From the IMG/VR virus record IMGVR_UViG_3300009506_000005, positions 49,770 to 113,769 of that record: 64,000 bases of DNA; one strand, given 5' to 3'. A model generated the notes under the pieces. The model made no database searches. It saw only the letters and a program-made list of their open reading frames with translations, and was not told the DNA's origin. This DNA comes from a virus. The translations under genes and the position numbers were made by a program. Below, piece by piece: positions 5,797-39,902 of this stretch (within the stretch, counting starts at the first letter, position 1; each line of letters opens with the position of its first letter).

Positions 5797-8252
5797 GCGA
5801 GCGAATTCCTATCACCGAGAGGCTCCACGCCTTGCGCGCCGTCGCCATCGGCGCGAACGCCGGCATAGTGTGGGAAACATTCCTCGCGGACAAGGAAGTC
5901 TTCCGCGTCGTGACGGAAGAGATCTCCCACCATCCGAGCGTGACTGTCGCGGAGTGCAAATGGGGCAGTTCACCGAAGGAGAATGCGCGGCACATTGCCA
6001 CGTTCGATCCCCCCACCTGCATCGAACTGCTCGACCTGATCATATCGTTGCAGCGGCGCATAGAGGATCCGGACACGGAGCTTTGTGACAAGAAGGCGCC
6101 TGAGTACGAGGTGGTCACTCTCGATGATCGTCTTGAATCCGCCATCGGGCATCTCTCGTCGCATCTCGGGGTCATCAACGTAGACCTCGCCGCGCTGATC
6201 GATGCGGCAATCGCCGAGCTCGTTCGCCAGCGTGAGCGCGGTGATGCCCTCGTCCTCACCGTGGAGATCCTGTCCAAGGCCGTCGAGTCCGCGCGATCGG
6301 AGTTTGTGAAGAGCGCCTCCGAGGGTGCTGCGATTCGTAAGCTCATGGACAAGGTCGGCGAGCTGGAGTCCGAACTGGATTCCGCCAAGGATCCCATCCC
6401 AATGGACAACGCCGAGCGCGAGATCAGGCGAGCGCGCGAGCAGCGGGACAGCATCTCCGATCAGTACGCACGCCTCTTGGCCGAGCTCAACCCGGGGCGC
6501 GAGGACCCGATCCTGGTTGTGAAGAAGCTCAAGGAGGCGTCCTCCGGTCCGGGCGAGAAGCAGCTTGAGCACATGAAGGACAAGGCGCGCATTCAGGCGA
6601 GTTCCCTCCAGCGCTTCAAGCGGGACGTCACTGCCGAGCTCGGGCTTGGGGAGGACGCCAGCGTGCCCGTCATCCTCTCCGCGATCGGCCGACTCGATGG
6701 AGATGGTGGTGCCGCGGCAAAGCTCTACTCCGAGCTGTGCGAGCGCATCAAGCGGTCCCACAAGGAGAACGGCGGCCGCGAGGACGAGGGCTTCTTCTCG
6801 TTCGTCGACCGCATCTGTGGCGAACTCACACTCACAAACGAGACCCTGGGGCGTGTGCGGCGGGAGAGGGACACAGCCCGGGCGAGGCGAGACGAGCTGC
6901 GCTCTCAGCTCATCAACTCCAAGGCCGAGCGAGGCGCCGAGGCCGAGGCTCTCCGGGTCGCGTTTGAGCAGATGTCCGAGCGCAGCGACCTGGACAACAT
7001 CTCCGTCTGCGATGAGATCGTGGCCGTCCTGGAGCGCGTGGACGCCGAGGAGTCCCTGGCCTACATGGAGAGGCTCAAGTCGATGGGAGCGCAGCGGGAC
7101 AGTGCCATGTCAGCTCTGGAGGAGTTGGAAGCCACGGTCAGTCTCATCGGGGACATGATCCAGCGGTATCAGGAGCACGGCATCCCCTCGCCGGCGAAGC
7201 TCGTCTCGCAGCTGGCCGAGGTCATGGAGAACCCCGAGGAGGGCCCGCCTCTGGACCACGACGCGATGAAGCCAGAGAAGATGCTGGCTGCGGACCTCAA
7301 CGAGGAGATCGCCGTCGCGGACTTCCTGCGCCGGAAGGTGGACGCCTTCGGCCGCTGGTTCAAGGCGAACTGCGTGATGACAAAGACAGACGAGAACGGC
7401 ACGCTGGAGCTGGACGGCATCGCCCCGGGTGCGGAGCCGGCCGAGGAGTTCGAGCGCCTGCTCTCGGACAACGAGTACTTCGGAGAGGAGCCGCGCAGTG
7501 GATACTGGAAGTGCAACAACTGCGGCGACATCCAGGACAAGGAAGAGGAGGTCAAGTGCTGGGCCTGCGGCAAGGGAGAGATGATCTATCACGAGGGCGT
7601 ACCAGGCCACACCGAGAATCCCGATGTCCTGTACGACAAGTGGATCAAGGACATCATGTCCCAGACCGCAGAGCCCACACCCCATGATGTCTTTGCCTAC
7701 GCCTTGGGCGCGAACGGATGGGTCGCTGTTGAGGAGGAGGATGGGAAGTGGTTCTGGGTTCTCGATGAGACCGGGTTCCCAGGGTTCAAGGGGCGTGTGC
7801 AAGCCTCGGACGCGGATGTCTTGGACGCCCTGGACAGGGACGACTACGAACACATGGTCAAGCTCCTCGGCGGAGGATGGAGCGAGGAGGCGCGCCAGTC
7901 GATTACCAAGAACATCATCGATCCCGCCAGTGATGTCTGGGAGCAGTTCGAGAAGTGGGCAGATCCCACCCGCGCCGGCGTCCGTCCCCAGCTCATCGGC
8001 GAGCCCAAGGAATGGGAGTGCGTGTACTGCTCAACCATCAACCAAGGGCGCTTCTCTTGCCGAGTGTGCGGCTCAGGCATGGGCTTCGAGGCGGCCGTTG
8101 CCACCAAGGCGAACCGCTGCGGTGACTGTGCCCTCTTCGATGGCGGTGGTCCGGATGACCGCTACGAGGAGTGTGTGGAGGGCCACGCCGAGGACATCAC
8201 CGCGGACTCGCCGGCCTGCGATGAGTTCGAGGAGAGGGAGGTGGAGGAGTGA
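5793..8252 (+). CDS. Large Ea22-like/coiled-coil/zinc-ribbon protein
   Basis: The 819-residue protein starts at ATG 5793, fixed by an ATGA overlap. Residues 1-75 repeat the Ea22-like start of the previous gene (ITERLHALRAVA, then FDPPTCIELLDLI). Residues about 80-560 are largely charged heptad-like helices. The C-terminal 270 residues contain three Cys modules: WKCNNC with CWAC, WECVYC with CRVC, and CGDC with later single cysteines. It reads like a scaffold or adaptor built from a duplicated small protein. Codon choice shifts relative to the first 5.8 kb. Function unknown. Confidence 0.75.
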   Translation: MSERIPITERLHALRAVAIGANAGIVWETFLADKEVFRVVTEEISHHPSVTVAECKWGSSPKENARHIATFDPPTCIELLDLIISLQRRIEDPDTELCDKKAPEYEVVTLDDRLESAIGHLSSHLGVINVDLAALIDAAIAELVRQRERGDALVLTVEILSKAVESARSEFVKSASEGAAIRKLMDKVGELESELDSAKDPIPMDNAEREIRRAREQRDSISDQYARLLAELNPGREDPILVVKKLKEASSGPGEKQLEHMKDKARIQASSLQRFKRDVTAELGLGEDASVPVILSAIGRLDGDGGAAAKLYSELCERIKRSHKENGGREDEGFFSFVDRICGELTLTNETLGRVRRERDTARARRDELRSQLINSKAERGAEAEALRVAFEQMSERSDLDNISVCDEIVAVLERVDAEESLAYMERLKSMGAQRDSAMSALEELEATVSLIGDMIQRYQEHGIPSPAKLVSQLAEVMENPEEGPPLDHDAMKPEKMLAADLNEEIAVADFLRRKVDAFGRWFKANCVMTKTDENGTLELDGIAPGAEPAEEFERLLSDNEYFGEEPRSGYWKCNNCGDIQDKEEEVKCWACGKGEMIYHEGVPGHTENPDVLYDKWIKDIMSQTAEPTPHDVFAYALGANGWVAVEEEDGKWFWVLDETGFPGFKGRVQASDADVLDALDRDDYEHMVKLLGGGWSEEARQSITKNIIDPASDVWEQFEKWADPTRAGVRPQLIGEPKEWECVYCSTINQGRFSCRVCGSGMGFEAAVATKANRCGDCALFDGGGPDDRYEECVEGHAEDITADSPACDEFEEREVEE

Positions 8253-15299: not shown

Positions 15300-15474
15300 C
15301 GTCTCCCTCCTCGATGGTGTAGACAGCGAAACTCGTGGGCGCCGCGTTGCCCATCTTCATACCCTCGATCGCGAGATCCACATCCACGTAGTTCCCCTCC
15401 AGCTTGGAGCGGAGCTCTTCCATGGTGATCTCCTCGCGGTCTCCGTTGTCTTTCCACGTGCGGATGATCTTCAT
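15286..15474 (-). CDS. Small hypothetical protein
   Basis: The 62-residue protein starts MKIIRTWKDNGDREEIT (ATG 15474) after an AAAGGAGATGAG SD. It contains MEELRSKLEGNY, which resembles MNDLCANLEGNM in the protein at 16265-16561, so the two may share a small domain. Function unknown. Confidence 0.6.
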   Translation of the reverse strand: MKIIRTWKDNGDREEITMEELRSKLEGNYVDVDLAIEGMKMGNAAPTSFAVYTIEEGDDDQA

Positions 15475-15815
15475 CTCATCTCCTTTCTTGATCGCTCCCG
15501 GCAATCCGGGCAGCGGTTCAGTAGTTCGGTCAGAGCTGCGCATCGATCGACACGGAACTCCAGATGCTCATTCGGAAGGTAGGAGAAATCAGGCTGGCTC
15601 AGAGGGCTCTCGTGGCGATGTCCACGGCGCAGCATCTCTGCGGCAAGCTCATCATGGCGCAGCTTGTACGATCCGGGCTCGATCTGGTTTCCCGCAACGC
15701 GGCCGGCGATGGAGTGGCGCTTGGCCCAGCTCGGCATGAACTTGTGGAGTTCGCCGTGCTCGCCGAGTAGGTGACGCTGGCAGAGGATACAGGGATCTGC
15801 CATCCACATTCTCAC
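15471..15815 (-). CDS. HNH-like/zinc-binding protein (tentative)
   Basis: The protein has about 114 residues from GTG 15815, chosen because it overlaps the upstream stop as GTGA; ATG 15809 is the alternative. Near the start is CILCQRHLLGEHGELHKFMPSWAKR, which resembles the CxxC...EH...PxW opening of some HNH/treble-clef proteins. A second pair, CPDC, ends the protein. The catalytic His cannot be assigned with confidence, so nuclease activity is only a suggestion. Confidence 0.5.
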   Translation of the reverse strand: MRMWMADPCILCQRHLLGEHGELHKFMPSWAKRHSIAGRVAGNQIEPGSYKLRHDELAAEMLRRGHRHESPLSQPDFSYLPNEHLEFRVDRCAALTELLNRCPDCRERSRKEMR

Positions 15816-16081
15816 GGGAGCACCTCGCAGTACTTGGGATCGATGGTAAACACGAAGTGCCGCCGCTCGTAGTCCGTGTCGCCCAAGTAATAGGACCAGC
15901 GGTTTTTCAGGTGGCGCGGGTTGTCGGCACACCGCGCACGGATGCGCAGCTTGCCGGACAGGGTGCATACGCTGAGCACCTCGCCGCGGGCCACGTTGTA
16001 GCCGGTGTTGGGGCAATCGACGCGCACCCAGTCACCGCGCTGCGGGATAGGTGATTCGAACAGTGGGAGGGTCTGGGTCAT
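15812..16081 (-). CDS. Hypothetical beta-rich protein
   Basis: The 89-residue protein starts MTQTLPLFESPIPQRGDWVRV (ATG 16081) after an AGGAGAG SD. Its composition suggests a small barrel (GDWVRVDCPNTGYNVARGEVLSV). Function unknown. Confidence 0.6.
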   Translation of the reverse strand: MTQTLPLFESPIPQRGDWVRVDCPNTGYNVARGEVLSVCTLSGKLRIRARCADNPRHLKNRWSYYLGDTDYERRHFVFTIDPKYCEVLP

Positions 16082-17549: not shown

Positions 17550-17864
17550 ATGATCATCAAAGTGCAGGCTTCCAAGGACAGGAACAAGTGGTGGTTGATG
17601 GACAACCTGGCGAAGGTCAGGTTCCAGGATCGCGCGGACGTGCTCGAAGATGGAGAGGGGTTCAAGGAGGGTGCCTTCGACATCGATCTGCGCGGGATGC
17701 TGAACGAATACGACAACAGGCGGACCGAGTACTCCGTGATGGTGGTCCGGGATCGCGACGGCAAGGAGACCTCGGTGCTCTTCGATGGCGTGGCCTACAT
17801 CATGAACGACCAGGGCGAAACCGTGGAGAAGGTGGTTGGGAACCTGGAGAAGGAAGGGATGTAG
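17550..17864 (+). CDS. Hypothetical protein
   Basis: The 104-residue protein starts MIIKVQASKDRNKWWLMDNL, with charged alpha/beta character throughout (YSVMVVRDRDGKETSVLFDGVAYI). A strong SD, GAAAGGGAGG, precedes the ATG. The leader bases ACAACTAGAAAG also occur in the capsid gene leader at 41 kb. It lies six bases before the tRNA gene. Function unknown. Confidence 0.75.
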   Translation: MIIKVQASKDRNKWWLMDNLAKVRFQDRADVLEDGEGFKEGAFDIDLRGMLNEYDNRRTEYSVMVVRDRDGKETSVLFDGVAYIMNDQGETVEKVVGNLEKEGM

Positions 17865-17870
17865 ATTCAA

Positions 17871-17942
17871 TGCGGGGTGACGCAGTGGCAGCGTGTCGGG
17901 CTCATAACCCGAAAGTCGGCGGTTCAATTCCGCCCCCCGCTA
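17871..17942 (+). tRNA. tRNA-Met (anticodon CAT), initiator-like
   Basis: A full cloverleaf folds. The acceptor is 17871-17877 with 17935-17941; the D stem ACGC/GCGT has loop AGTGGCA. The anticodon stem TCGGG/CCCGA has loop CTCATAA (anticodon 17903-17905). The T stem GGCGG/CCGCC has loop TTCAATT. Three consecutive G-C pairs flank the anticodon loop, and positions 1 and 72 are T-T and cannot pair; both are initiator hallmarks. Pair 11-24 is C-G, not the A-U usual in bacterial initiators. CCA is not encoded. It could also be elongator Met or, if modified, Ile-CAU. Confidence 0.85.
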
Positions 17943-17947
17943 CAAAG

Positions 17948-18060
17948 GCCCGTTCGATTCGGGCTCGTTCGCCGAGGGCGTGGTCGCGAAGGGAGCTGGG
18001 TTTGACTCCCAGTGATATGTCCGGCGTCACAGAGGCGCCGGTAACTCCGCAGAGACATAT
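17948..18060 (+). other. Structured stretch after the tRNA
   Basis: Two T-arm-like hairpins occur: GCCCG-TTCGATT-CGGGC (17948-17964) and CTGGG-TTTGACT-CCCAG (17996-18012). They are followed by nested pairs ATATGTC 18015-18021 with 18054-18060, and CCGGCG with CGCCGG (18021-18041). No complete second tRNA folds. This could be a decayed tRNA cluster or a processing and termination structure. No gene is seen from 17945 to 18142. Confidence 0.35.
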
Positions 18061-18142
18061 GGCGCGGGCTGCCTCGCTCGTGAGGGACACGGCGGAATCC
18101 GAGGTCCTGGAGGCGCTATTTTTTCGATGAAAGGAGGCTGGC

Positions 18143-18613
18143 ATGAAGTGGGAGGAGACGGAGGCGGACAAGTGCCGCTACGGTGAGATCGCATCGCGCA
18201 TTTTCGGCGAGGCGGAAATCATCTGGGAGCGCTCGGAGGCAGGCTACCAGGGATCGGCGAACGTACTGGCGGCGATGCCGGACGGCACCTTCGTTCACTA
18301 CGAGTGGACCTACGGGTCGTGCTCCGGCTGTGACGAGTGGGAGGCGCGCGGTCTGTCCGACGATGAGGTCGAGCAGGAGATGCGCAGCGCCATGGCCGTG
18401 CTCAAGGACGTGGAGACGCTTCGGAAGTACCTGCACCTGACCGAGGGATTCGAGGACGCGGAGGCGCCCTCGGCGAACACGCCCACGAACGGCGGAATCG
18501 TTGGTCCGCTGCGCGCGCTCTGCGGCACGGACGGAACTGAGTTCCAGGCGATGGCCTGCGCCGCGCAAGAGTGGCTGGCGAAGCGGGAGGTGGGCGATGC
18601 AGCGCAAGGTTGA
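18143..18613 (+). CDS. Hypothetical protein
   Basis: The 156-residue protein starts at ATG 18143 after GAAAGGAGGCTGGC. The N-terminal 65 residues are alpha/beta with a CSGC pair near residue 59. The rest is acidic and helical. It overlaps the next gene by 17 bp. Function unknown. Confidence 0.7.
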   Translation: MKWEETEADKCRYGEIASRIFGEAEIIWERSEAGYQGSANVLAAMPDGTFVHYEWTYGSCSGCDEWEARGLSDDEVEQEMRSAMAVLKDVETLRKYLHLTEGFEDAEAPSANTPTNGGIVGPLRALCGTDGTEFQAMACAAQEWLAKREVGDAAQG

Positions 18614-18887
18614 GACGTTCGATCTGGAGCAGGCCTACGATGAGAAGATCACCCCGCTCATGGATCAGATCATCGAGATCTGCCAGGAGCACAAGATGCC
18701 GATGATCGCGGACTTCATCTACTGCGTCAATGATCAAGGGCTCCTGAGCGGTTGCGAGACGCTGCTCAACGGCTTCGAGAACAGACGCATCGACACGATG
18801 GACGGCGCGCACAACGCGCTGCGGGCACCCGCTCGTCTCACGGCGTGGATGGATCCTCCGAGGAATTCTGGAGACGGCCGTGGCTGA
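18597..18887 (+). CDS. Hypothetical protein, paralogue of 24699 gene product
   Basis: The 96-residue protein starts at ATG 18597. Residues 10-40 (YDEKITPLMDQIIEICQEHKMPMIADF) match in pattern the protein at 24699-25187 (KEIKPIVDQMREKCVELNIPFFTSF). I recognise this as a recurrent phage protein type of unknown function. It is coupled on both sides. Confidence 0.65.
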   Translation: MQRKVETFDLEQAYDEKITPLMDQIIEICQEHKMPMIADFIYCVNDQGLLSGCETLLNGFENRRIDTMDGAHNALRAPARLTAWMDPPRNSGDGRG

Positions 18888-19734
18888 TCACGACGAAAAC
18901 GGCGAGGGCTGCCTCCAGGAGAAGTGCCCCTACTGCGCTGAGGAGTACTGCCCGATCTGCCAGCCGTGCTTCGCCGCAGCCATCGCGGAGATCGCCGCCA
19001 AGGACGAGGTGATCGAGCACGCGCGCCAGGCCATCGAGGAGGCTGGCTTCCAGAGCATTCACGGCCTGGTCAAGGAGCTCAGCGTCAGGACCAAGGAGCG
19101 GGACGAGCTGAGCAAGCGCAACGAGTGGCTAGAGGAGCGCGTTCCGCATCCAGGGGCTCGGATCGCGTTGAAGGACATGGAGAAGGTGAAGGCCGAACTG
19201 GACGACCTGCGCAAGAGGAACGAGATCCTTCGCAAGGATAATCTTGAGGTCTCGATCGAGCGCTCGGAGAGTGACGAAGTCCGTCGCCGGCAGAAGATAG
19301 AGCTGGACCACGCGAAGCGGATGGCCGAGCGCCTACGCCGTGAGCGGAACGCGCGAGTCAACACGTCGGTCCTGGGCGCACTTTCCGAGGAACTGGAGCA
19401 GGACAACCGAGCGAGCGAGGCCAGCGAGGTCCGGAGCTTGATGCATGAGATCATCGCGGTCCGCGGTGCGAACTCCGGAGACCTGACCTTGCAGAACTCG
19501 ACGGTGGTTCGCGTTGGCGCTGTCCTTGTTGGTGATTCCGGAGGCATGCAGTGGGCTGTCCGCGCCACGGCCGTCGGACGCCAGTCGTTCCTTGGAATCA
19601 CGGTAGACTCCATGTGCGGCCTGAAACTTTCTGGAAGGGAGGAGCACTACACCATGACGCAGCCGATCACGTGGAGGCCATGGGAAGAGGTGTTCCCGGA
19701 TCGTTCAGAGCCCGAGGTCGCCGATGGGGAGTAA
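18880..19734 (+). CDS. Cys-rich, coiled-coil protein
   Basis: The 284-residue protein starts at GTG 18880. Residues 10-30 hold CLQEKCPYCAEEYCPICQPC, a dense zinc-binding cluster. A coiled coil follows (about 60-165) and then a beta-rich C-terminal domain (VRVGAVLVGDSGGMQWAVRATAVGRQ). The plan resembles that of the proteins at 5793 and 8249 in reverse order. Function unknown. Confidence 0.7.
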   Translation: MADHDENGEGCLQEKCPYCAEEYCPICQPCFAAAIAEIAAKDEVIEHARQAIEEAGFQSIHGLVKELSVRTKERDELSKRNEWLEERVPHPGARIALKDMEKVKAELDDLRKRNEILRKDNLEVSIERSESDEVRRRQKIELDHAKRMAERLRRERNARVNTSVLGALSEELEQDNRASEASEVRSLMHEIIAVRGANSGDLTLQNSTVVRVGAVLVGDSGGMQWAVRATAVGRQSFLGITVDSMCGLKLSGREEHYTMTQPITWRPWEEVFPDRSEPEVADGE

Positions 19735-20199: not shown

Positions 20200-20403
20200 C
20201 TAGCAGGCCACCGGGATGTCGAGCGGGCGCTTCTTGCAGTGCTTGCCGTTCCGCTCGCTGATCCCGTCCCTGTATCCACGCCTGTAGGCCCGGGCATACG
20301 CCCTCAGGGCTCGATCATTGAGGCGCCCCGTCTCCAGTGCGGGATCCATCGGCGCGCAGCTCAGCGCGTCTTCACGGCCTTTCTCATACGCTCTGCGGTT
20401 CAT
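20200..20403 (-). CDS. Small basic RMF-like protein
   Basis: The 67-residue protein starts MNRRAYEKGREDALS (ATG 20403) after GGAAAGGAGACC. It has two G-x-x-x-A helices, AYEKGREDA and AYARAYRRGYRDG, a pattern seen in RMF-like phage proteins, and a basic tail with two Cys. It is the last gene of the amidoligase operon. Ribosome association is inferred, not shown. Confidence 0.55.
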   Translation of the reverse strand: MNRRAYEKGREDALSCAPMDPALETGRLNDRALRAYARAYRRGYRDGISERNGKHCKKRPLDIPVAC

Positions 20404-20666
20404 GACTTGGTCTCCTTTCCGAGAATCCAATCCAGGCCACGATCTATGTTGAGGTCGATCCTGGTCAGTGTTGAGAGTGATCTGCGGATCTTCGTCCGCT
20501 GCTCGCTGTCCACGGCGTTGGCGAGCTTATCTCCGAGCGCCTCCATGGCTACATCCAGGGCCTCGCGCACTTCTTCGAGCGGCAAGAGCCCATCTTCCTC
20601 CGGCTCTCCACCGTTCTCCCGCGCCTCCTCGATGCCCTGCATGTGGATCTCAGCTTCGATCTTCAT
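20400..20666 (-). CDS. Small helical hypothetical protein
   Basis: The 88-residue, acidic, helical protein (LPLEEVREALDVAMEALGDKL...LSTLTRIDLNIDRGLDWIL) starts at ATG 20666. It overlaps its neighbours at both ends (4 bp and 17 bp). Its LSTLTRIDLNIDRGL resembles the ALSTLDLAIEKRL ending of the protein at 12683. Function unknown. Confidence 0.6.
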   Translation of the reverse strand: MKIEAEIHMQGIEEARENGGEPEEDGLLPLEEVREALDVAMEALGDKLANAVDSEQRTKIRRSLSTLTRIDLNIDRGLDWILGKETKS

Positions 20667-21042
20667 CTTTCAACTCCTTCATCGCTTGTTTCACAGCGGC
20701 CCACGCCTCTTCCTCTGTTCCGTATCCCTTACCGCTCAGGCCGTACTCCGTGTCGTATCCGGTGTGCCTGTGGAACGCCCAGTAGCGCCAGCCCACAGCC
20801 AGGTGGAGCAGGCGCACGGCGAAGACCGGCTCACAGCCGGCCGCCACGTTCTCGCACGCTGCGATCACCGATGGCAGGTCGCCGCCGTGGATCTTTTTGA
20901 GATCGTGGCCCTTGGCGATCCACTCCTCGCCCTGGCCGCTTCCGATCCAGATATCGTTCTCACGAACGATCTCGAACATGAATCCGGCGCTCTCGCCGGT
21001 TGCGCGAGCCTTGTTGTGGTATGTCCAGTTGATGAGGTCCAT
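20650..21042 (-). CDS. Hypothetical protein
   Basis: The 130-residue protein starts MDLINWTYHNKARATGESAGF. It is rich in aromatic residues (LAVGWRYWAFHRHTGYDTEYG) and ends in a helix (TEEEAWAAVKQAMKELKDED). It lies just downstream of the double GGCT-like gene and is probably in the same operon. Function unknown. Confidence 0.65.
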   Translation of the reverse strand: MDLINWTYHNKARATGESAGFMFEIVRENDIWIGSGQGEEWIAKGHDLKKIHGGDLPSVIAACENVAAGCEPVFAVRLLHLAVGWRYWAFHRHTGYDTEYGLSGKGYGTEEEAWAAVKQAMKELKDEDRS

Positions 21043-21045
21043 CGT

Positions 21046-21912
21046 TCACTCCCCGTTCCCACACACACGGAGATGGGATCCCATGGACCCCTGGTACTTC
21101 TTCCAGTCGCCCTCAGCCACGCGAGAATAGCCACGGACGCGATCCCGATGCAGGGTGTAGGTCTCCACCACCTCGCCGCCCTCCAGCTCAATCTCGCGCC
21201 TCTGATAGAACGCGGGGTGCCCTTCAAGTCGATCAAGCATCTGGAGAACCTCGGCGTTCACCTCGTAGAGCTCGCCCACCACCGATTCGTCTTCGAGGTC
21301 CTCGCGCTCCACCATGCCGGGGTAGGCGCCGAGATCGTAGAGTGCGAAGCCACCACGAGTCCGTGCCCGGCCAACGAACTTGGCGCCCGGTCCGGCGAGC
21401 AGGGGATGGTTATGAAGTCCCCTGAGGAGCGAGCCGTAGACGAAGACCACGCGCGGCGCGAACGCCCGGCCAACGGCATCGCGAAGCGCGGAGACGCCGA
21501 TCCCATGGTCTCGGCAGCCGCGCTTGATTATCGCTACATACGATGAGGAAGGCGGGGACTCCGTCTCGCCATCGTCGCGCACGTAGGTGATCGCCTTGTG
21601 CTCTCGTCCCTGATCGTCATGAACGATGATCGCCGTCTGAGCGTAGCAACCGGAGTTCGCTCCCTCGTATCTGTCCAGCGTCTTCACCTGGTCCGGAGTC
21701 AGGCGGTAGAGAACTCCGGGCACGCTGTTCCCTTCCTCGGGACGAATCGTCGCCGGCGCGCCTCCCCACGTTCCAGCATAACCAGCGAAGGCCAGGCGAT
21801 GATCGCGGAGATGGGCAACGGGCCCTTGGAGCACATCTCCCAGGCGTCTCCGGATCTGCTTCGTGGAGAGATTCGAGCCATACGCGAAGTAGTTGGTCAG
21901 CTTTCCCTTCAT
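21046..21912 (-). CDS. Tandem gamma-glutamylcyclotransferase-like (AIG2/GGCT) protein
   Basis: The 288-residue protein starts MKGKLTNYFAYGSNLS (ATG 21912); an earlier in-frame ATG is less likely. Two GGCT-like domains are visible: domain 1 with YFAYGSNL (8-15) and catalytic-type LDRYEG (E83), and domain 2 with VFVYGSLL (157-164) and LDRLEGHP (E230). GGCT-fold enzymes cyclise gamma-glutamyl groups to release 5-oxoproline. The gene sits directly downstream of an amidoligase, a pairing described for phage amidoligase systems, so it likely removes or edits glutamyl-type amide conjugates. Confidence 0.8.
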   Translation of the reverse strand: MKGKLTNYFAYGSNLSTKQIRRRLGDVLQGPVAHLRDHRLAFAGYAGTWGGAPATIRPEEGNSVPGVLYRLTPDQVKTLDRYEGANSGCYAQTAIIVHDDQGREHKAITYVRDDGETESPPSSSYVAIIKRGCRDHGIGVSALRDAVGRAFAPRVVFVYGSLLRGLHNHPLLAGPGAKFVGRARTRGGFALYDLGAYPGMVEREDLEDESVVGELYEVNAEVLQMLDRLEGHPAFYQRREIELEGGEVVETYTLHRDRVRGYSRVAEGDWKKYQGSMGSHLRVCGNGE

Positions 21913-21949
21913 CGGTCTACCTTTCTGGCCGCTTGCCCGGCCGTCGTTC

Positions 21950-22897
21950 CTATTCGGTTCGGAATGGACGCTCGGAGAGCAGTTCCCGTGCCGTGGCGAA
22001 TGCTGCCCCAACCATCCCGGAGTGGACCATCATGAGCCTGGCGCTCTCCCTCGTCACCTTCTCGTTCTGAGCGCAGCGGGCGCGCTTGTTGTTGATGGCG
22101 CGCGCCGAGAGAGCCGTCACGAGCTGGACCCAGCTCTTCACGTAGCCAGCGTGAAGGGTGCGGCTCTTGAAGTTGAAGCAGCGGAACTCCACCGTGCGGC
22201 CACCGGTGTTGAAGAAGGCGTGGAGATTCAGAGAGCGATACCGGGAGCTGTCATAGTGGCGAACGTCACGAGCGCCCTCGAACGAGTAGCAGCGGTAGTG
22301 GTTCTCCCAGTCACGGCCGTACCATTCGCGGCAGAGCTTGTCGAGGGTGATGCCGCGCATGCCCTTCACCTTCGAGATGAAGTCTGCGGGAGAAGTCTGG
22401 CACCACCTGCGGATGCGGTCCTGGCGAGCGCCGATCATCCGAAGAGCCAGCCTCTCGTTGGAGTACCAGATCTTGACGAGGCGCCCGAGAGCCGAAGGAT
22501 CCTGCTTGAATTTCTCGCCGCCCACGTGGATGTGGACTCCGCAGCTGTTGTCGTTGCGCGCGCCAGCCTCGCGAAGAGCCCTGACGATCTTCTGGAGCAT
22601 CTCCATGTCATCGTCCTCTCCTGTGATTCCCTTGAGGACCGGGGAGACAACCTCGCCGCCCATCGGAGAGCCGTCAGCCACGCTGCCATCGTACATGACG
22701 ATCCAGTCGCGCCCGTCTGCCATCCGCACACCGTACTTGTCATAGAACCCTCCGATGTGGTGAACCGTGCCATTCACCGTCTCGGCGATGACGCTGGCCG
22801 CGCGGGACTTGGTGAGGCCCACATATTCGATCTCAACGCCGTAGGTCAGCTCGTTCATCGTCTCGAAGTTGGCAGCGTTATTGTGAGTGCTGGTCAT
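21950..22897 (-). CDS. Putative amidoligase (Amidoligase_2-type)
   Basis: The 315-residue protein starts MTSTHNNA (ATG 22897) after CGGAGG. It shows the signature blocks of phage amidoligases of the glutamine-synthetase/COOH-NH2 ligase fold: GVEIEYVG (20-27), GEVVSPVL (81-88), CGVHIHVG (119-126) and RTVEFRCFN (234-242). These enzymes are predicted to form amide or peptide bonds using ATP. With the GGCT-like neighbour it probably makes and edits a peptide-type modification of a protein or small molecule. The substrate is unknown. Confidence 0.8.
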   Translation of the reverse strand: MTSTHNNAANFETMNELTYGVEIEYVGLTKSRAASVIAETVNGTVHHIGGFYDKYGVRMADGRDWIVMYDGSVADGSPMGGEVVSPVLKGITGEDDDMEMLQKIVRALREAGARNDNSCGVHIHVGGEKFKQDPSALGRLVKIWYSNERLALRMIGARQDRIRRWCQTSPADFISKVKGMRGITLDKLCREWYGRDWENHYRCYSFEGARDVRHYDSSRYRSLNLHAFFNTGGRTVEFRCFNFKSRTLHAGYVKSWVQLVTALSARAINNKRARCAQNEKVTRESARLMMVHSGMVGAAFATARELLSERPFRTE

Positions 22898-22935: not shown

Positions 22936-22976
22936 ATTATGCATGGTTCATGCCATGTTTGCACAACGCTTGAACA
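22936..22976 (-). promoter_or_regulatory. Promoter/operator of the amidoligase operon
   Basis: On the - strand a -10-like CATAAT lies at 22941-22936, with no strong -35. The + strand sequence TGCACAACGCTTGAACA (22960-22976) sits where the -35 would be. It recurs as near-copies at 23094-23110 (inverted, one mismatch) and 23118-23134. This looks like a repressor or activator site over the promoter. Confidence 0.5.
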
Positions 22977-23093: not shown

Positions 23094-23134
23094 TGTTCAA
23101 GCATTGTGCATTGTTGATGTACAACACTTGAACC
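23094..23134. promoter_or_regulatory. Operator-like dyad
   Basis: TGTTCAAGCATTGTGCA (23094-23110) faces TGTACAACACTTGAACC (23118-23134) across 7 bases. GTTCAAG/CTTGAAC is perfectly inverted. The same 17-mer type overlaps the amidoligase promoter at 22960. The Fis-like HTH gene next door is the obvious candidate binder, but this is inference. Confidence 0.5.
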
Positions 23135-23169: not shown

Positions 23170-23439
23170 CTACGCTTGTGCACGGTCACTTGAGAGCTTG
23201 TTCGCGGTGAATATCGCGTTGATTTCCTTGCGGATTTTTAGAGTAGAGCAGAGTCTTGCTGCTCTGTTCCTCGGGATTTCGAGCTTCTCGGCGAGGCCGC
23301 CGATCGTCGTCACGTCCGGGTCCCTTGCAGCCTTGATGATGACCTCGATCGCCGTTCCTTCCATGGTCCTGTCGAAGTAACTGTCCGAACCAGCTGCGAA
23401 TTTCAGTGCTCTTCCAAGGTTCCTGTCGCTCTTCTTCAT
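23170..23439 (-). CDS. Fis-type HTH regulator
   Basis: The 89-residue protein starts MKKSDRNLGRALKF (ATG 23439) after GCGGAGGTGAG, preferred over an earlier in-frame ATG at 23565. The C-terminal half is a Fis-like HTH (GTAIEVIIKAARDPDVTTIGGLAEKLEIPRNRAARLCSTLKI). It lies upstream of, and in the same direction as, the amidoligase operon and between two groups of operator-like sites. It is probably a local regulator. Confidence 0.65.
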   Translation of the reverse strand: MKKSDRNLGRALKFAAGSDSYFDRTMEGTAIEVIIKAARDPDVTTIGGLAEKLEIPRNRAARLCSTLKIRKEINAIFTANKLSSDRAQA

Positions 23440-23993: not shown

Positions 23994-24099
23994 GTTCCTG
24001 AGAACGGCGTCCCTCTGCATCCTGATCCCCATCGGTGTCGTTCTCTTGTTCGGCATCGTGTCCGAGATCGTCCAGGCGATCTGGAGGAGGCTGCGATGA
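23986..24099 (+). CDS. 37-residue single-span membrane peptide
   Basis: The frame from ATG 23986 to TGA 24099 reads MTEFLRTASLC, then a hydrophobic core ILIPIGVVLLFGIV, then a charged end. It overlaps its neighbours by 8 bp and 4 bp, which supports translation. Function unknown. Confidence 0.5.
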   Translation: MTEFLRTASLCILIPIGVVLLFGIVSEIVQAIWRRLR

Positions 24100-24419
24100 G
24101 CGATCTCTCAGAGAACCTGGCCCGGATTGTCGGGCTCAAGAATGGGAGGATCGAGGAGCTGGAGAAGGCGATCGGAGCGATCGCCGGCGCCATGAAGGCG
24201 GATGAGGAGAGCGGGATCGCCGTCGTGGGCGCCGCCCCGAAAACGTGGGAGGCGATCCTGGACGCGGTGGAGGCCCTGAACTTCACCCAGATGGACGCCG
24301 GAAGGTGGGGAAGGGAGCGGGCCGAGCTCGAAGCGAGGATTGCCGAACTGGAGACGCAGCTCCAGCAACTCAAGGCAGATGCAGTCCAGGCCATCGCGCC
24401 CAGCGCGGGAGACGCATGA
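24096..24419 (+). CDS. Coiled-coil hypothetical protein
   Basis: The 107-residue protein has helical ends (LARIVGLKNGRIEELEKAIGAI; RAELEARIAELETQLQQLKAD) flanking a short middle. It starts at ATG 24096 through an ATGA overlap. It is likely oligomeric. Function unknown. Confidence 0.65.
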   Translation: MSDLSENLARIVGLKNGRIEELEKAIGAIAGAMKADEESGIAVVGAAPKTWEAILDAVEALNFTQMDAGRWGRERAELEARIAELETQLQQLKADAVQAIAPSAGDA

Positions 24420-24451
24420 AACAGCGGGTGAGAACCCGGGAAGGAGACGCA

Positions 24452-24697
24452 ATGGAGAACTCGAAGAGGCAGACGAGGCGTGGCAACCTCATCCGCATCG
24501 AGGAGAAGGAGGGCGGCCAGTACGTGAAGGCGGAAATACTGGACAAGGTGGCCCGGGAGGTGCGCGGCCTCATAGATGCGTGGGACGGATGCGGTGGCTG
24601 CGCCAACGAGAAGATGACGGTTGAGATGAGCGCAGCTATCGCGAACGCGCGGGCCATGGTCAAGGCGATCGACGACGCCTTCGCCGCGGAGGGGTGA
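24452..24697 (+). CDS. Small hypothetical protein
   Basis: The protein has 81 residues from ATG 24452, which has GGAAGGAG eight bases upstream. An in-frame ATG at 24416 overlaps the previous stop as ATGA and is a real alternative, giving 93 residues. The sequence is helical with CGGC in DGCGGCANEKMTVEMS. Function unknown. Confidence 0.6.
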   Translation: MENSKRQTRRGNLIRIEEKEGGQYVKAEILDKVAREVRGLIDAWDGCGGCANEKMTVEMSAAIANARAMVKAIDDAFAAEG

Positions 24698-24698
24698 C

Positions 24699-25187
24699 AT
24701 GAGCGAGAAGAAGCAGGAGAAGCGGATTGAGGAACGGCACTGCACGGAGCTCGATCTGGAAGCCGAAGACGTTGGGCCGATCGCCGCAGCTTTCACGAAG
24801 GAGATCAAGCCGATCGTCGATCAAATGCGCGAGAAATGCGTGGAGCTGAACATCCCGTTCTTCACCTCGTTCGTGCTCGACAGAAGGGATGATCTCGGTG
24901 GCGTCGCCTCAGCGAACCTCATCTACTACGGGGCCGTTGGAGAGGACGACAAGCCAAGGGATGAGGATCGCGCTCTTCCCATGAGCAAGCTTGCCCGCGT
25001 CGTCATCGATGGCTGGCAGCCGCTTCCGCCGCAGATGGCGGCGAACGCCGTGCGGGCAGAGGCCGCGAAGAAAGCCCTGGAGCCGGTGCTGCGCGAGGTG
25101 CTGTCGAGGCACACGGACTGCGACTGCGAGATGTGCCAGGCGGCGCGCGGGGCACAGGATGCCAGGGACAAGGATCTGATCAACTAG
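24699..25187 (+). CDS. Hypothetical protein, paralogue of 18597 gene product
   Basis: The 162-residue protein contains EIKPIVDQMREKCVELNIPFFTSFVL (about 34-59), matching the 18597 protein's core, followed by a second half ending in a CDCEMC pair (near 146). It belongs to a recurrent phage family of unknown function. Confidence 0.65.
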   Translation: MSEKKQEKRIEERHCTELDLEAEDVGPIAAAFTKEIKPIVDQMREKCVELNIPFFTSFVLDRRDDLGGVASANLIYYGAVGEDDKPRDEDRALPMSKLARVVIDGWQPLPPQMAANAVRAEAAKKALEPVLREVLSRHTDCDCEMCQAARGAQDARDKDLIN

Positions 25188-28810: not shown

Positions 28811-30256
28811 ATGGTTCTCGCCATAACGAAGAAAACGGAATCAGATCTCACCGACTGGCTTGCCACGGAGGCCGGGTTCCTCCAGGGGCTGTGCCGGTAT
28901 GACGAGGAGCCGATCAAGCTCGACGCCTACCAGGCGGCGTTCCTGTCCCAGGACAACAAGTACCGCTGTGTGGAGAAGGCCAGGCAGGTTGGATTCTCGT
29001 TTCTCTTCGCCCTGGAGGCCGTGGCCAGATGCCACCTGCGGCCAGCTCAGACCTCGGTCTTCGTGTCCTACAATCTGAGCGACTCCAAGGAGAAGATCGG
29101 GTACGCGCGCCAGCTCTACGAGGAGATGCCCGCCGCGTATCAGAAGAAGCTGATCGTTGACTCCAAGCTGGAGCTCGCCTTCGAGAGCAACGGCTCCAAG
29201 AAGGTGAGCAGGATCATCTCCAACCCCAGCCGCGCGCCCCGCGGGAAGAAAGGGGACATCTACCTGGACGAGCTCGCGCACTATGTGGACGACAGGAGCG
29301 TCTACAAGGGATCCACCGCGCTCATCCTCCGCTCCCGCGGCCAACTGTCCATCTGCTCCACGCCCCTCGGGCGCCGCGGGGTCTTCTGGGAGATCGCGCG
29401 CCAGGAGCTCAAGCCGTACCGAGCCTACAAGAGACAGCGCGTGCCGTGGTGGCTCTGCCGGTTCTTCTGCGTGGACGTGGAGAAGGCAGCCGTGGATGCG
29501 CCGCACATGCCAACGGAGGATCGCGTCAAGCGTTTCGGTTCGGAGGGCATCGTCGATCAGTTTGATTCCCTCCTCCTCGAAGACTTCCAGCAAGAGTTCG
29601 AGCACGAGTACATCGATGAGAGCTACTCGTTCTTCCCCTACGACCTGATCATGCCCTGCACGGACGACCCCAGGGAGGGCGAGCTGGGGGGCTTGGACTT
29701 CTGGCGTGACGTGACCGATGCCGGCAGGGTAAGAGGGCGCCTCATTGCGGGGTTCGATGTCGGGCGTCACCGGGACTTGTCCGAGCTCGCCATCTTCGAG
29801 GAGATAGGAGAGCACAAGTTCTGCCGCATGCTCCAGCGCTTCGATCGCGTGCCGTTCGCCGTCCAGGAGGAGGAGTGCCGGCGCGTTCTCAACACCCTAC
29901 CGATCGCGCGTTTCTGTATCGACTCCACCGGGATCGGGATGCACCTGGCAGAGAACCTCTCCGTGGACTTCCCGCAGATCCAAGAGGTCACGTTCAGCAA
30001 CGAGGTGAAGGAGACCCTCTGCAACGATTTCAAGATCCTGCTCCAGCAACGCAGGATGACGCTCCCGAGCGATCGCGAGCTCGTGGCGCAGATTCACTCC
30101 ATCAAGCGCCGTGTCACCTCCACGGGGAAGGCCAAGTTCGAATCGGAGTCCACAGGGAAGGGGCATGCCGATCGATTCTGGGCGTGTGCCCTCGCTGTGC
30201 AGAAGGAGCGTGTCCCCATAGGCAAGCCCAGCGTGGGCTTCCGGGTAGTTGGATGA
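28811..30256 (+). CDS. terL: Terminase large subunit
   Basis: The 481-residue ATPase/nuclease packages DNA into the prohead. Walker A-like KARQVGFS (56-63), Walker B YLDE (151-154) and the SAT-like motif [10 protein letters not shown] (181-190) mark the motor. The RNase H-like nuclease shows [12 protein letters not shown] (D316) and CIDSTGIG (D371). Length is normal. It starts at ATG 28811 and is followed closely by the head genes. Confidence 0.93.
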
Positions 30257-35012: not shown

Positions 35013-38000
35013 GTGGGCAAGAGAGAAGGGAACTATCGAGCGCCGACCGGGAAGGTCTCGGGTGGCAGGAAGCCGGCGGCGAAGCGCGAGGACGTCGAGG
35101 CGACGATCGAGCTTGGCGAGGAGTCCGCTACCGCAGTGCTATCAGCGCGTTCGCTCGCGCAGAAGTTCGCCGAGGTGGCCGCTGGGTTCGATGACGATGT
35201 GATCGATCCACTTCGCGAGTGCGAGGTGGGAGAGAACGCGGTGGAGATCCTGGAGATCCTTCCGCTCGTCTCGAAGAATCTGGCAGCCGAGTTCTCACGC
35301 CTCCAGGATGAAGGTGGCGATGGGGAAGTCCCGCAGGTGGATACGGGCGATCCGCTGGAGATCGGCGCCGCCCTTCTCTCTTGCTCAGCGAACGTCAGGA
35401 AGTCCCTGGAGGACGCCCCGCGGGACATCGTAGAGGCCGTGGACCAGGGCATCGATTCCCTGCGGGCCTTTCTCTCGTTGCCGGATCAGCTCGATGGAGA
35501 GGACCATGCGGCTGAGTTCTTCACGAAGGCTGACCGCATTCCGAAGCCGTTCCGCTCGCCGGGTGGAAAGGCGCAGCTCGTCAACGTTCTTCTGTCCAGG
35601 GTTCCCGAGCACAAGGTCTACGTGGAGCCCTACGCTGGCTCGGCCACGCTGTTCTGGGCGAAGAAGAAGGTGGAGAAGGAGGTGCTTTCTGACCTGAACG
35701 AGGGCGTCGTGGGGCTGTTCAAGTTCTTGCAGGAGGCCGGAGAGGCGGACTTCGAGTGGATGCGGAAGCAGATCTGGGGCTACGACGCGGTCAACTTCAA
35801 TAAGCTCAAGGAGAAGGAGAGCGGCTCCGCACGCTACAAGGCATATCGCTTCAAGTACCTGAACCTCTACTCCATGCGCGGGCGTGGCGAGACCATCGAT
35901 GATTCCCCGCGCTCTCGCGGTCAGACGGGTGCCCTGTTCCTGCGGAACCTGGAGCGCTACAAGGAGCGCCTCGAAAACGTTCGTGTCATCCACGGTGACG
36001 CCCTGGAGGTGATGAAGAAGTACGATCGCTCTGGCGTCTTCATGTACATCGATCCTCCCTGGCGTCCAGAGCAGGGTTCTCCCGAGTGGAAGGCCTACGA
36101 CCACGAGGCGTTCGAGAAGGCGGTCAGTGGACTGAAAGCGAACGCCTTGGTCTCCTACCAGGGGAAGCTCGTACTGGGAGATGGATGGCGGAAGCACAAG
36201 CACACGAGCGTGCTGGGTGGCATCTCTAAGGAGACCACGCAATCCCTCTACTGGAACTACAACTTCCGTGGCGTTGAAGCCAAGCGCGAAGGGACGTCCG
36301 GATGCGAATTCTGCGATGCTCTCGCGGCCGAAGCCTTCGTCTGGGATGGCGGCATCATCAAGTCGTGTCACGAGCACGAGAGCCAGGCGCGCGAGCTGAT
36401 CGAGAACGTGAACAAGTCCGAGGTCCTGGCCGTCCGGGATTGCGAGCTACCCGAGCAGGAGGAGGTGGCGAAGCTCTCCATCGATGAGATGAACCCGCGC
36501 AGCCTGCGAGAGGTCAGCGACAGGGAGCTGCTATCCCTCAACCGGCGCCTGCATCAACTGTATGGCAAGAACTTCGAGGGCAACGACAAGATCACGTCTG
36601 GAGACCTGAACCGAGAGGATCTGGTCAACGCCTACATCTTCGTCTCGAACGAGATGAAGACGCGGGAGATGGAGCTGAACGATACTTCCTTGGCGATCGA
36701 GGCGCGGACGCTCGCCAAGGAAGAGGGGAAGAAGGAGCTTGCTCCGGTACTCCCGGGATCATCCGGCGCGCATCCGCTGATCAAGATCGAGGAGGTGCTC
36801 CCGCACTTCAAGTCCTTCAAGATCCGCATGCCGTTCCTTTGGCTCGTTGGCTCGCTTGCGAACATGGGCAAGACGGAGAACGACATCGACCTCCTCGTGA
36901 AGGGGCCCTGCTCCGAGGAGCTGCTCCAGGTGCTCAAGTTCCGTCTCGGGCGCATGTTGCCGCCGGAGCTGAGCAAGCGCCTGTCGGTGATGGAAGACGA
37001 GCTGGGTGGCCCGTTCACCTCGCATGTGGAGCTCGCCGACCTCGTGGTGGAGATGAGGCCGGCGTTTGCGGTCAAGGAGATGGCGCTCGCCAAGCAGGAC
37101 GACCCGCTCCTGGACTTGCCGAAGGAGGCCGGGAAGAAGAAGGCCGTCTTCCAGTACCACGCACGTGGGTCAAGCTTGCATCTGGATCTCAGGATGGAGC
37201 TCGCCGACTTCCTCGTGGGCTGGACCATGGCCAACCAGCGCTCTGGTAAGGTGCCAGTGATTGAGACGATGGACGAGTTGAAGAGGATCGGCTCCTCGTT
37301 CTCGCCGGACGGTGACCAGTACACGAAGCCCTTCCGCTCGCCAGCGAGACTGGCTGCGTTCCCGAAGAGCAGGCAGCCGGAAGTCTGGCTGGGGATATCA
37401 GCCAGGCGGTTCGAGCCCGGCGAGGTAGGCGCCTCGCGGAACGAGTACGGCGTGATCGTGGCCGTGGATCGGCCCTCTGTCGAGTACGGTACCCAATCAA
37501 GCCGCTTCCACGAATACTTCTTCACTGGGAAGGACGCCGCCGTGCAGGGCATTCTCGCCTTCCGCCAGCTCGTGGGGAGGGGAAAGGCCATCAAGCTGGA
37601 GGGCGAGGGGGGCGATCCATTCGAGGAGGGGCGCCGCACGCCGGCTGGCCGCACCTTCTGGACCTCGATGCTCACCTCCTCGGCGCTACCCTCCGTCCTC
37701 AAGCGGCGCGCAGTGCACGAGGGCCGAATGCCGCCCGATGGGAAGAGCGCGATCCCCATCTCGCTGGAGAGGGTCACGCCCAAGGAGTTCCGCTACTGGG
37801 AGGCCAAGGGTAAGGAGGCACGCGAGATCCGCGATGCGCTGGTCTCCTCCCGCTTCTTCACCGAGCAGAACGTAGGCATCGTGGACGGCGAGTTCCGGCG
37901 CCTCGTCCAGAAGACCTACCTCTACACCGGCGACGGCTCTGATTTCACGTTCAAGGCCGAGTCCGAGCCATTCGCCTTGTCTTGGCAGAGGTGGAAGGGT

Positions 38001-39902
38001 CAGAGCGTTGTGAGGACCGGGCCCAGCCGCCAGGTGTGGCACCTGACAGTCGGTGGTCTCCCTGGCTGGAAGCTCCAGCGTGATCCCCTCGCGGGTGACG
38101 AGGTGACGGCCGTCGAGAAGCCGAAGGCCAACTCCGCGCTCTTCGAGCTCGAAGGTGATGTCGAGCCTGGAAAGGAGCTTGGCGGCGAGGTCCTGAACGA
38201 TACCAAGGCCACGCCCTCGGAGATCTCCATCGTCGATGAGGGCCGGGCGGAGATCATCGACAGGAAGCCCGGGCTCATCCGCCTGCGGTTCAGGGGCAAG
38301 AAGCTCCAGGGGATCTACACGCTGGAGGCCGAGGAGAAGGGATCGGAGATCTGGACGTTCGCCAAGGATGCCGAGGCAGAGAAGAGAGAGGAGGACGACC
38401 CCTGGAAGACGGGTGATGTGGAGTTGGCGGACATCGAGGACACGGAGAAGGCGATCCCCGTCCGTGGAGGGGTGCAGATCTGGGACCCTGAGAAAAAGGA
38501 CCCGAACGTTGACCGCGAGCAGCTGGAGCCACTGGCCATCTTTTCTCCGATGAAGCCGGCGAAGCGGTTCGATGACACGGCTGCGGCCGTCAAGGAGTGG
38601 GGCCATGGCGCCGCCATCGAGCACGGCGTGTTCGTGGAGCCCAAGGAGAACGGTTTTAGATTCAGCGTCCAGAAGAAGGGCGATCAGGTCTTCTCGTTCA
38701 CCGAGGACGAGAAGCGGGACTTGCTTCCGCTGCTTCCAACGGTGCGCGAGGCTCTGGAGAGAATCCCCGGGGAATGGATCCTGGACACCGAGTTCATGGA
38801 GGAGGAAGAGGGCGGTGGGTTTGTTCCGCGTCGTGACTTGGCGAGGTTCAGGGGGAAGGAGCCGCAGGACGACAAGCGCGTGCGCTTGAAGGTGGTTGAC
38901 CTGCTCTACCACAACGGCCGCAACTTGCTCGGACGCCCGTACCACGAGCGCCGCTCTGCCCTGCGTCGGTTCTTCGATGGGAAGAAGACGCTGGGACCGC
39001 TGGTCATCACGCCCACGAAGCTGGCGAAGAGCGCTGAGCAGCTGCAACGAGCGATCGCCTGGGCTCGCAAGGTTCCTGGGTCCGAGGGCGCCATGCTCAA
39101 GCTGTACGGATCCACTTACTCCCTCGGTGGCGAGAACTCGGCGTGGGCGAAGATCAAGGACTCGCGAGAGATTCGCGCCATCGTCTACGAGAGACATCCT
39201 GTCAAGGATTCGCCCGGGGTCTACAACTTCTTCGGCGCCGTGGGGCCCGTGCGCGAGGATGAGTGGAATGAGACTGTGGAGGTCGGAGGAAAGACCTACA
39301 CGCCGGTGGGGCGCACCTTCAACTCGAAGGAGGAGGCCGAGGTCGGAGATGTCATCCGCGTGGAGGCCACGGAGATCCTCGTTGACGCGAGTGGCGACAA
39401 GAAGTCACTGCGCTGGTTCACGCCCACGGTGATCGAACGGGTGGACACGAGACCAATGACGGCGGCCGATGTCGTAAGGCTGGCGAAGCCCGAGGAGATC
39501 AAGAAGATCGCGGACGCCATCCTCCAGCGCGAGATCCCCATCTTCAAGGCTGACGAAGAGCGGCTCGTCTACGGCGAGGTCCTCATCCCCGAGGAGGTGG
39601 ACGCGCAGAAAGAGATCTACAGCGAGGAGGAGGTGCGCCAGGCGGCCCACGGGTTCATGGAGAACTTCCAGAACCTCGGTGTCATGCACAAGGAGCTCGC
39701 GAACGGGCGCCTCAAGATCCTGGAGAGCTTCATCGCCCCGGTGGAGATGGAGATCGCTGGGAAGAAGATCAAGAAGGGCACATGGCTCCTCGCCGTCCGC
39801 GTGATTTCGGACAAGCTGTGGAAGCAGGTGAAGGACGGAAAATGGACCGGATTTTCTATCGGCGGATCGGCCGTTCGCGTGGCGGAAACCTCGGCAACTT
39901 GA
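35013..39902 (+). CDS. Polyvalent fusion: Dam methyltransferase, NTase-like, LigD-PE-like, ATP DNA ligase, XkdF-type protease
   Basis: The 1629-residue protein starts at GTG 35013 after AGGAGG. Residues 176-425 form a Dam-type adenine methyltransferase (KPFRSPGGK, VEPYAGSATLF, catalytic DPPW 347-350). Residues 605-630 hold an NTase-like GSLANMGKTENDIDLLV. Residues 712-740 resemble the LigD 3'-phosphoesterase (HARGSSLHLDLRMEL). Residues 1200-1460 are an ATP-dependent ligase: motif I KENGFR with Lys1211, LDTEF, VVDLLYHNGRNL, EGAMLKLYG, WAKIK. Residues 1505-1625 match the XkdF phage protease (VYGEVLIPEEVDAQKE, MHK, ESFIAPVEM, WTGFSIGG). It is probably the prohead protease, packaged with enzymes that may act on incoming DNA. 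Confidence 0.85.
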   Translation: MGKREGNYRAPTGKVSGGRKPAAKREDVEATIELGEESATAVLSARSLAQKFAEVAAGFDDDVIDPLRECEVGENAVEILEILPLVSKNLAAEFSRLQDEGGDGEVPQVDTGDPLEIGAALLSCSANVRKSLEDAPRDIVEAVDQGIDSLRAFLSLPDQLDGEDHAAEFFTKADRIPKPFRSPGGKAQLVNVLLSRVPEHKVYVEPYAGSATLFWAKKKVEKEVLSDLNEGVVGLFKFLQEAGEADFEWMRKQIWGYDAVNFNKLKEKESGSARYKAYRFKYLNLYSMRGRGETIDDSPRSRGQTGALFLRNLERYKERLENVRVIHGDALEVMKKYDRSGVFMYIDPPWRPEQGSPEWKAYDHEAFEKAVSGLKANALVSYQGKLVLGDGWRKHKHTSVLGGISKETTQSLYWNYNFRGVEAKREGTSGCEFCDALAAEAFVWDGGIIKSCHEHESQARELIENVNKSEVLAVRDCELPEQEEVAKLSIDEMNPRSLREVSDRELLSLNRRLHQLYGKNFEGNDKITSGDLNREDLVNAYIFVSNEMKTREMELNDTSLAIEARTLAKEEGKKELAPVLPGSSGAHPLIKIEEVLPHFKSFKIRMPFLWLVGSLANMGKTENDIDLLVKGPCSEELLQVLKFRLGRMLPPELSKRLSVMEDELGGPFTSHVELADLVVEMRPAFAVKEMALAKQDDPLLDLPKEAGKKKAVFQYHARGSSLHLDLRMELADFLVGWTMANQRSGKVPVIETMDELKRIGSSFSPDGDQYTKPFRSPARLAAFPKSRQPEVWLGISARRFEPGEVGASRNEYGVIVAVDRPSVEYGTQSSRFHEYFFTGKDAAVQGILAFRQLVGRGKAIKLEGEGGDPFEEGRRTPAGRTFWTSMLTSSALPSVLKRRAVHEGRMPPDGKSAIPISLERVTPKEFRYWEAKGKEAREIRDALVSSRFFTEQNVGIVDGEFRRLVQKTYLYTGDGSDFTFKAESEPFALSWQRWKGQSVVRTGPSRQVWHLTVGGLPGWKLQRDPLAGDEVTAVEKPKANSALFELEGDVEPGKELGGEVLNDTKATPSEISIVDEGRAEIIDRKPGLIRLRFRGKKLQGIYTLEAEEKGSEIWTFAKDAEAEKREEDDPWKTGDVELADIEDTEKAIPVRGGVQIWDPEKKDPNVDREQLEPLAIFSPMKPAKRFDDTAAAVKEWGHGAAIEHGVFVEPKENGFRFSVQKKGDQVFSFTEDEKRDLLPLLPTVREALERIPGEWILDTEFMEEEEGGGFVPRRDLARFRGKEPQDDKRVRLKVVDLLYHNGRNLLGRPYHERRSALRRFFDGKKTLGPLVITPTKLAKSAEQLQRAIAWARKVPGSEGAMLKLYGSTYSLGGENSAWAKIKDSREIRAIVYERHPVKDSPGVYNFFGAVGPVREDEWNETVEVGGKTYTPVGRTFNSKEEAEVGDVIRVEATEILVDASGDKKSLRWFTPTVIERVDTRPMTAADVVRLAKPEEIKKIADAILQREIPIFKADEERLVYGEVLIPEEVDAQKEIYSEEEVRQAAHGFMENFQNLGVMHKELANGRLKILESFIAPVEMEIAGKKIKKGTWLLAVRVISDKLWKQVKDGKWTGFSIGGSAVRVAETSAT

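Follow-up and report, generated by a model that had tools for sequence, protein, structure and literature searches.

A phage accessory cassette with an amidoligase and two fused GGCT-type domains of different class is encoded in the 64,000-nucleotide stretch analysed here (the window, bases 49770-113769 of a 113,769-base virus record). We favor, with modest confidence, a role in making and removing an amide, in which an amine would be capped with a gamma-glutamyl or similar group at the expense of ATP and the capping reversed by GGCT. Two-enzyme cassettes of this kind are already known, and the new element is the variant with two GGCT classes fused in one protein. Iyer et al. 2009 are said to have predicted phage amidoligase-GGCT modules by comparative genomics. 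The window shares with those modules a phage-borne amidoligase that has a GGCT gene as its neighbor. Unlike those modules, the window joins two GGCT classes in one protein, and its relatives add a small partner, here called T3.

The cassette forms a compact operon on the minus strand, running from 22897 to about 20200. The amidoligase (315 aa, 21950..22897) comes first, its ATG at 22897 preceded by a Shine-Dalgarno-like GGAGG, and the gene for the tandem GGCT protein (288 aa, 21046..21912) follows after 37 nt. Three small open reading frames continue the minus strand downstream. A 130-aa ORF in the same operon (20650..21042) begins after a 3-nt gap, with a codon-position GC of 0.60/0.44/0.78. 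It is overlapped by an 88-aa ORF (20400..20666), for which no family was found, and a 76-aa ORF with a TTG start (20200..20430) is a weak candidate for the operon's last gene, judged by codon-position GC. The same measure favors minus-strand coding over the long plus-strand ORFs that overlap the operon. No relatives of the 130-aa ORF were found in viral contigs, phage records or 145 Myxococcales genomes, and the small downstream ORFs are uninformative on function since they have no detectable relatives. Likely genes on both sides lie on the plus strand (e.g., 17550-19734 and 24096-25187), which gives the operon the appearance of an accessory insertion. The wider surroundings also hold a Pyr_excise gene for a pyrimidine dimer DNA glycosylase (15471-16016, minus strand) and a tRNA-Met (cat) gene (17871-17943, plus strand).

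The 242-bp gap upstream of the amidoligase contains three copies of the 15-base operator-like site GNACAANRCTTGAAC, which occurs nowhere else in the window. Copy 1 (22961..22975, plus strand) and copy 2 (23095..23109, minus strand) make up a 17-nt inverted pair, and copy 3 (23119..23133, plus strand) matches the pattern. The chance expectation of 0.05 is flattering because the pattern was drawn up with the sequence already in view. A small upstream ORF (23170..23439, minus strand) with a weak helix-turn-helix match (HTH_IclR, 0.074, below the cut-off) could encode a regulator of the operon. A simple scan for sigma-70 promoters returned nothing above chance. Gene order, tight spacing and the three operator-like sites suggest one regulated operon. 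A known defense system was also considered for the cassette and rejected, as no anti-phage defense family in PADLOC matched.

The first enzyme is assigned to Amidoligase_2 (PF12224), the glutamine-synthetase/GCL-like COOH-NH2 ligases, with a match of 1.6e-42 and 146.5 bits (cut-off 22) across profile positions 2-244 of 245. A sequence-only reading had named it a COOH-NH2 ligase-type amidoligase. The amidoligase assignment stands, whereas the family COOH-NH2_lig (PF14395) was not reported by the Pfam scan at E up to 1. Searching the PDB by sequence gave only chance matches, so the fold was modeled. The AlphaFold2 model, built on a 73-sequence alignment, has a mean pLDDT of 91.6, and its top 50 structural matches in VIA-align all belong to the glutamine-synthetase superfamily. 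The best match is 1tt4 (Z 14.4, 3.8 A over 238 residues), with YbdK (1r8g, Z 14.2), plant glutamate-cysteine ligase (GCL; 2gwc, Z 14.1) and E. coli GshA (2d32, Z 12.4) also among the matches. Eleven residues are invariant across the 73 aligned amidoligases (D70, S72, E82, P86, G120, H122, H124, R219, T235, E237, R239), and two more, E22 and E24, come close to it. Going by the modeled fold, the conserved residues are predicted to include those for binding ATP and metal and for phosphoryl transfer. The fold and the invariant residues are consistent with an enzyme whose glutamine-synthetase-type site would use ATP together with metal ions to activate a carboxylate and then join it to an amine. 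The carboxylate would most likely be the gamma-carboxyl of glutamate. This gamma-glutamyl reading is borrowed by analogy from GCL, YbdK and GS relatives at about 10-13% identity, which counts against our preferred explanation.

The GS-like superfamily also includes the Pup deamidase/depupylase Dop, to which the model aligns with Z 11.7 (5lrt). The sequence-only reading had suggested a peptide tag on host or phage molecules, which is one target class among several. In such a scheme the ligase would attach a peptide or glutamate to a protein of the host or the phage, and GGCT would take it off again. We regard such reversible tagging as very improbable, as the best structural matches are small-molecule ligases (YbdK, GCL), the known GGCT classes have small gamma-glutamyl compounds as their substrates (PMC12756093) and no tag sequence was identified.

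The second protein matches the GGCT family PF06094 in two stretches (7.5e-28 and 7.3e-14, separately, in the record search). The N domain (residues ~6-150; 21463..21897, minus strand) is of the GGCT class, with a YGSN loop (YGS at residues 11-13) and Glu83. Its best solved relative is human GGCT (2i5t, 2.1e-16, residues 8-140). The C domain (residues ~155-274; 21091..21450, minus strand) is of the GGACT/YtfP class, with a YGS loop at residues 159-161, Glu230 and a PF06094 score of 94.2 bits; its solved relatives are YkqA (2qik), GGACT (3jub) and YtfP (1xhs). Glu83 aligns with the active-site position mutated to Gln in the human GGCT variant 3cry, and Glu230 with the corresponding mutated position in the human GGACT variant 3jud. 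The claim of two complete GGCT domains, each with a YGS motif and a catalytic-type Glu, is thereby borne out. Of the domains collected, 231/232 N domains and 55/55 C domains retain the catalytic Glu, although the LEGHP motif with its Glu was part of one pattern used to search genomes. YGS was likewise part of the search patterns, so selection accounts in part for how well that loop is conserved. Active-site residues have been lost in neither enzyme, as seen from the invariant amidoligase residues, the kept Glu and the GS/GCL/YbdK fold. The GGCT, GGACT and ChaC classes and their Glu-dependent mechanism have been reviewed (PMC12756093). Judging from the domain classes and the conserved Glu, glutamate's own alpha-amine would attack the gamma-glutamyl amide, yielding 5-oxoproline and the free amine. 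The N domain class would act on gamma-glutamyl amino acids or peptides, and the C domain class on gamma-glutamylamines.

The two domains have separate histories. In a tree of 133 domains, for which the bootstrap is not fully settled, N and C domains split with 100/100 support. The N domain of the window falls in a clade of 26 (89/82) and the C domain in a clade of 21 (93/86), and both clades come from amidoligase-linked loci. In 11 loci N and C are separate genes that lie in different frames and share four bases (GTGA or ATGA), hence the fused protein is most simply a frame fusion of such an overlapping pair. The fused form occurs in the window and in loci L002, L012, L013 and L170. The tandem protein is the joined form of two old GGCT lineages, which elsewhere are separate genes beside amidoligases, as in myxobacterial prophages. 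Fused N-C proteins also occur without an amidoligase, in Planctomycetota and other bacteria, and these group in a separate clade. The double domain had been called unusual, which is not supported, as the two classes are repeatedly met fused or side by side, in bacteria as well as in viral contigs. The solved Bacillus protein YkqA (2qik) likewise has two GGCT-type stretches in one protein, but its first domain, not its second, best matches the C domain of the window.

The sequence-only reading was right that the pairing of phage amidoligases with GGCT is known. An amidoligase lies within 2 kb on the same strand in 64/80 GGCT-anchored viral loci (51/62 distinct at 70% identity). Conversely, a GGCT gene lies within 2 kb in 65/80 amidoligase-anchored viral loci (16/20 distinct after merging at 70%). 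Each set of 80 comprises the best-scoring loci of its search rather than a random sample. The amidoligase of the window matched 65 of 50,697 phage records, and whole amidoligase-N-C modules recur in Myxococcales prophages. The two enzymes might also be independent metabolic genes travelling together, with GGCT depleting glutathione-like thiols of the host or feeding glutamate and the amidoligase doing something else. Among bacterial GGCT loci of the same family, an amidoligase is nearby in 31/80 and absent in 49/80, which speaks for this reading. In viral loci, however, same-strand adjacency is the rule across many contigs, and Myxococcales keep amidoligase, N, C and T3 together, which makes this explanation improbable. 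An amidoligase without GGCT in the fetched stretch was found in 12/80 phage loci, and this counts against the paired making and removal of an amide that we prefer.

A comparable pair of amidoligase and GGCT-class gene is found in gut Firmicutes phages and in C. difficile Tn6164 (PMC3485107). Those loci differ from the window in having mostly a single GGCT class, without a fused GGACT-class domain. Some of the loci adjoin packaging genes, and T3 is present in part of the gut loci. Many gut-phage modules (L101, L104-L106, L111, L115-L131 and others) also carry a divergent second amidoligase paralogue just upstream of the main one.

The record encodes a large terminase, portal, tail sheath, tape measure and baseplate proteins as well as an integrase, and the phage is contractile-tailed. 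Over the best-matched pieces, the terminase shares 57-68% identity with Myxococcales genomes and the tail sheath up to 46-60%. From the likeness of both proteins to Myxococcales prophages we infer that the host is likely a myxobacterium. At least 11 elements from 8 Myxococcales genomes have the order terminase, sheath, cassette inside a stretch of about 36-52 kb. This co-location places the relatives' cassettes in prophages of the window's lineage, prophage status being judged by the co-location of terminase and sheath. Compared with the relatives' prophages, the cassette of the window lies in another place, on the opposite strand and before the terminase. No close DNA relatives of window positions 26000-50000 were found among phages.

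Two structural genes of the window differ in layout from their prophage counterparts. The terminase large subunit is one ORF in the window (28811-30256, plus strand), and in many related Myxococcales prophages it matches in two parts, residues 2-264 and residues 266-481, separated by a few bases, the gene there being split or frameshifted. In the head-gene cluster (35013-39902, plus strand), a single 1629-aa ORF combines a D12 adenine-methyltransferase, an ATP-dependent DNA ligase and a C-terminal XkdF-type prohead protease. In related Myxococcales prophages one open frame, mostly of ~440-610 aa, holds both the methyltransferase and the protease region, and the elements with these frames gave no reported match to a ligase.

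The LUZ24/RIO1-like cassette shares with the window an Amidoligase_2 enzyme and a GGACT-class GGCT, and is termed a 'peptidoglycan modification' cassette (PMC3890496, PMC5498523). For related amidoligase and GGCT cassettes, published work proposes peptidoglycan modification against superinfection (PMC5498523, PMC11945000). The cassette of the window could similarly change the cell wall for superinfection exclusion or lysis, with the amidoligase adding unusual peptide linkages to stem peptides and the GGCTs trimming or recycling gamma-glutamyl peptides. In myxobacterial prophages the cassette lies ~20-27 kb beyond the tail sheath gene, which makes late, host-surface-related expression conceivable. 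An ATP-grasp ligase and a glutamine amidotransferase are further members of the LUZ24/RIO1-like cassette, whereas the cassette of the window shows neither and adds a GGCT-class N domain. Searches of the cassette's 130-aa, 88-aa and upstream ORFs against Pfam and PHROGs gave no match to either enzyme. In normal stem peptides, moreover, the D-Glu amine is blocked by L-Ala, which bars GGCT from acting without prior cleavage. Cell-wall modification for exclusion or lysis is conceivable, yet unlikely.

T3 is a family of ~80 aa found by comparing the ORFs around amidoligase-GGCT modules. An iterated profile search returned 46 strong hits among 39,296 ORFs of the fetched loci (L171-L184, L016-L019, L203-L244 and others; e.g., L176 at 6815-7054). 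All but one of the hits (45/46) overlap a module gene or sit within about 0.6 kb of one on the same strand. T3 is placed after C in Myxococcota and between the amidoligase and N in Bacillota phages. Because module genes had served to select these loci, the linkage was checked without that bias in 145 whole Myxococcales genomes, of which 22 carry T3, with 36 occurrences in all. An amidoligase lies within 4 kb on the same strand for 33/36 of these T3 genes. Of the other three, one is a partial hit, one is a fragment at a contig end with a C-type GGCT beside it, and one adjoins a partial C-type GGCT match. Conversely, T3 accompanies 32 of the 34 full-length Myxococcales amidoligases, and the remaining two are both near contig ends. 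T3 adjoins the fused form in L170. Neither the window nor record positions 1-52000 gave a T3 hit, and T3 was likewise not found in the fused-form records L002, L012 and L013, which may be fragments. The 130-aa and 88-aa ORFs of the window were rejected as T3-like (hhalign probability <1%).

No family in Pfam, PHROGs, NCBIfam or PADLOC matches T3. Its model (pLDDT 96.6) has a beta-beta-alpha-alpha-alpha-beta arrangement with no clear match in the PDB (best Foldseek E 2.8; best VIA-align Z 3.3). A carrier protein or a ubiquitin-like tag was rejected for T3, since no PDB fold matches clearly, no serine is conserved and the C-terminus is not fixed. Phages of Myxococcota and Bacillota might use on their hosts a widespread conjugation-deconjugation system of amidoligase, GGCT-class and GGACT-class removers and T3 as adaptor or amide acceptor. 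We advance only tentatively, as an unlikely proposal, that the operon of the window is a stripped-down member of this system.

In butirosin synthesis, the ligase BtrJ and the GGCT protein BtrG protect and deprotect an intermediate via a gamma-glutamyl amide. The activities predicted here are the same pair, with a ligase making and a GGCT removing a gamma-glutamyl amide. The cassette might by analogy serve small-molecule synthesis, adding a gamma-glutamyl cap, allowing chemistry and removing the cap by GGCT, and the ~80-aa T3 of the relatives is comparable in size to a carrier protein. BtrJ, however, is an ATP-grasp enzyme as opposed to the GS-like ligase of the window. The cassette shows no antibiotic genes or further biosynthetic enzyme, T3 lacks a matching fold and the conserved serine of carriers, and T3 was not found in the record. 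Protection and deprotection in a biosynthetic pathway is thus quite improbable.

The capping and uncapping of an amine that we prefer would most likely target cell-wall peptides or another host amine. A maker beside a remover would amount to a futile cycle unless the two are separated in time, place or substrate, and the GGCT might work on some host pool unrelated to the amidoligase, for example glutathione. Both points count against the preferred explanation. We know of no substrate for a phage Amidoligase_2 enzyme, and the literature searched turned up no biochemical study of a phage amidoligase-GGCT pair.

Phage amidoligase-GGCT pairs are widespread and have been annotated by guess, as 'peptidoglycan modification' or 'auxiliary metabolism'. 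The myxobacterial form is distinguished by two different GGCT classes, and its relatives almost always have the small partner T3 linked to them. The T3 gene is the part most worth following. A defined cassette of two to four genes in prophages of culturable Myxococcus species makes the function of these pairs directly testable.
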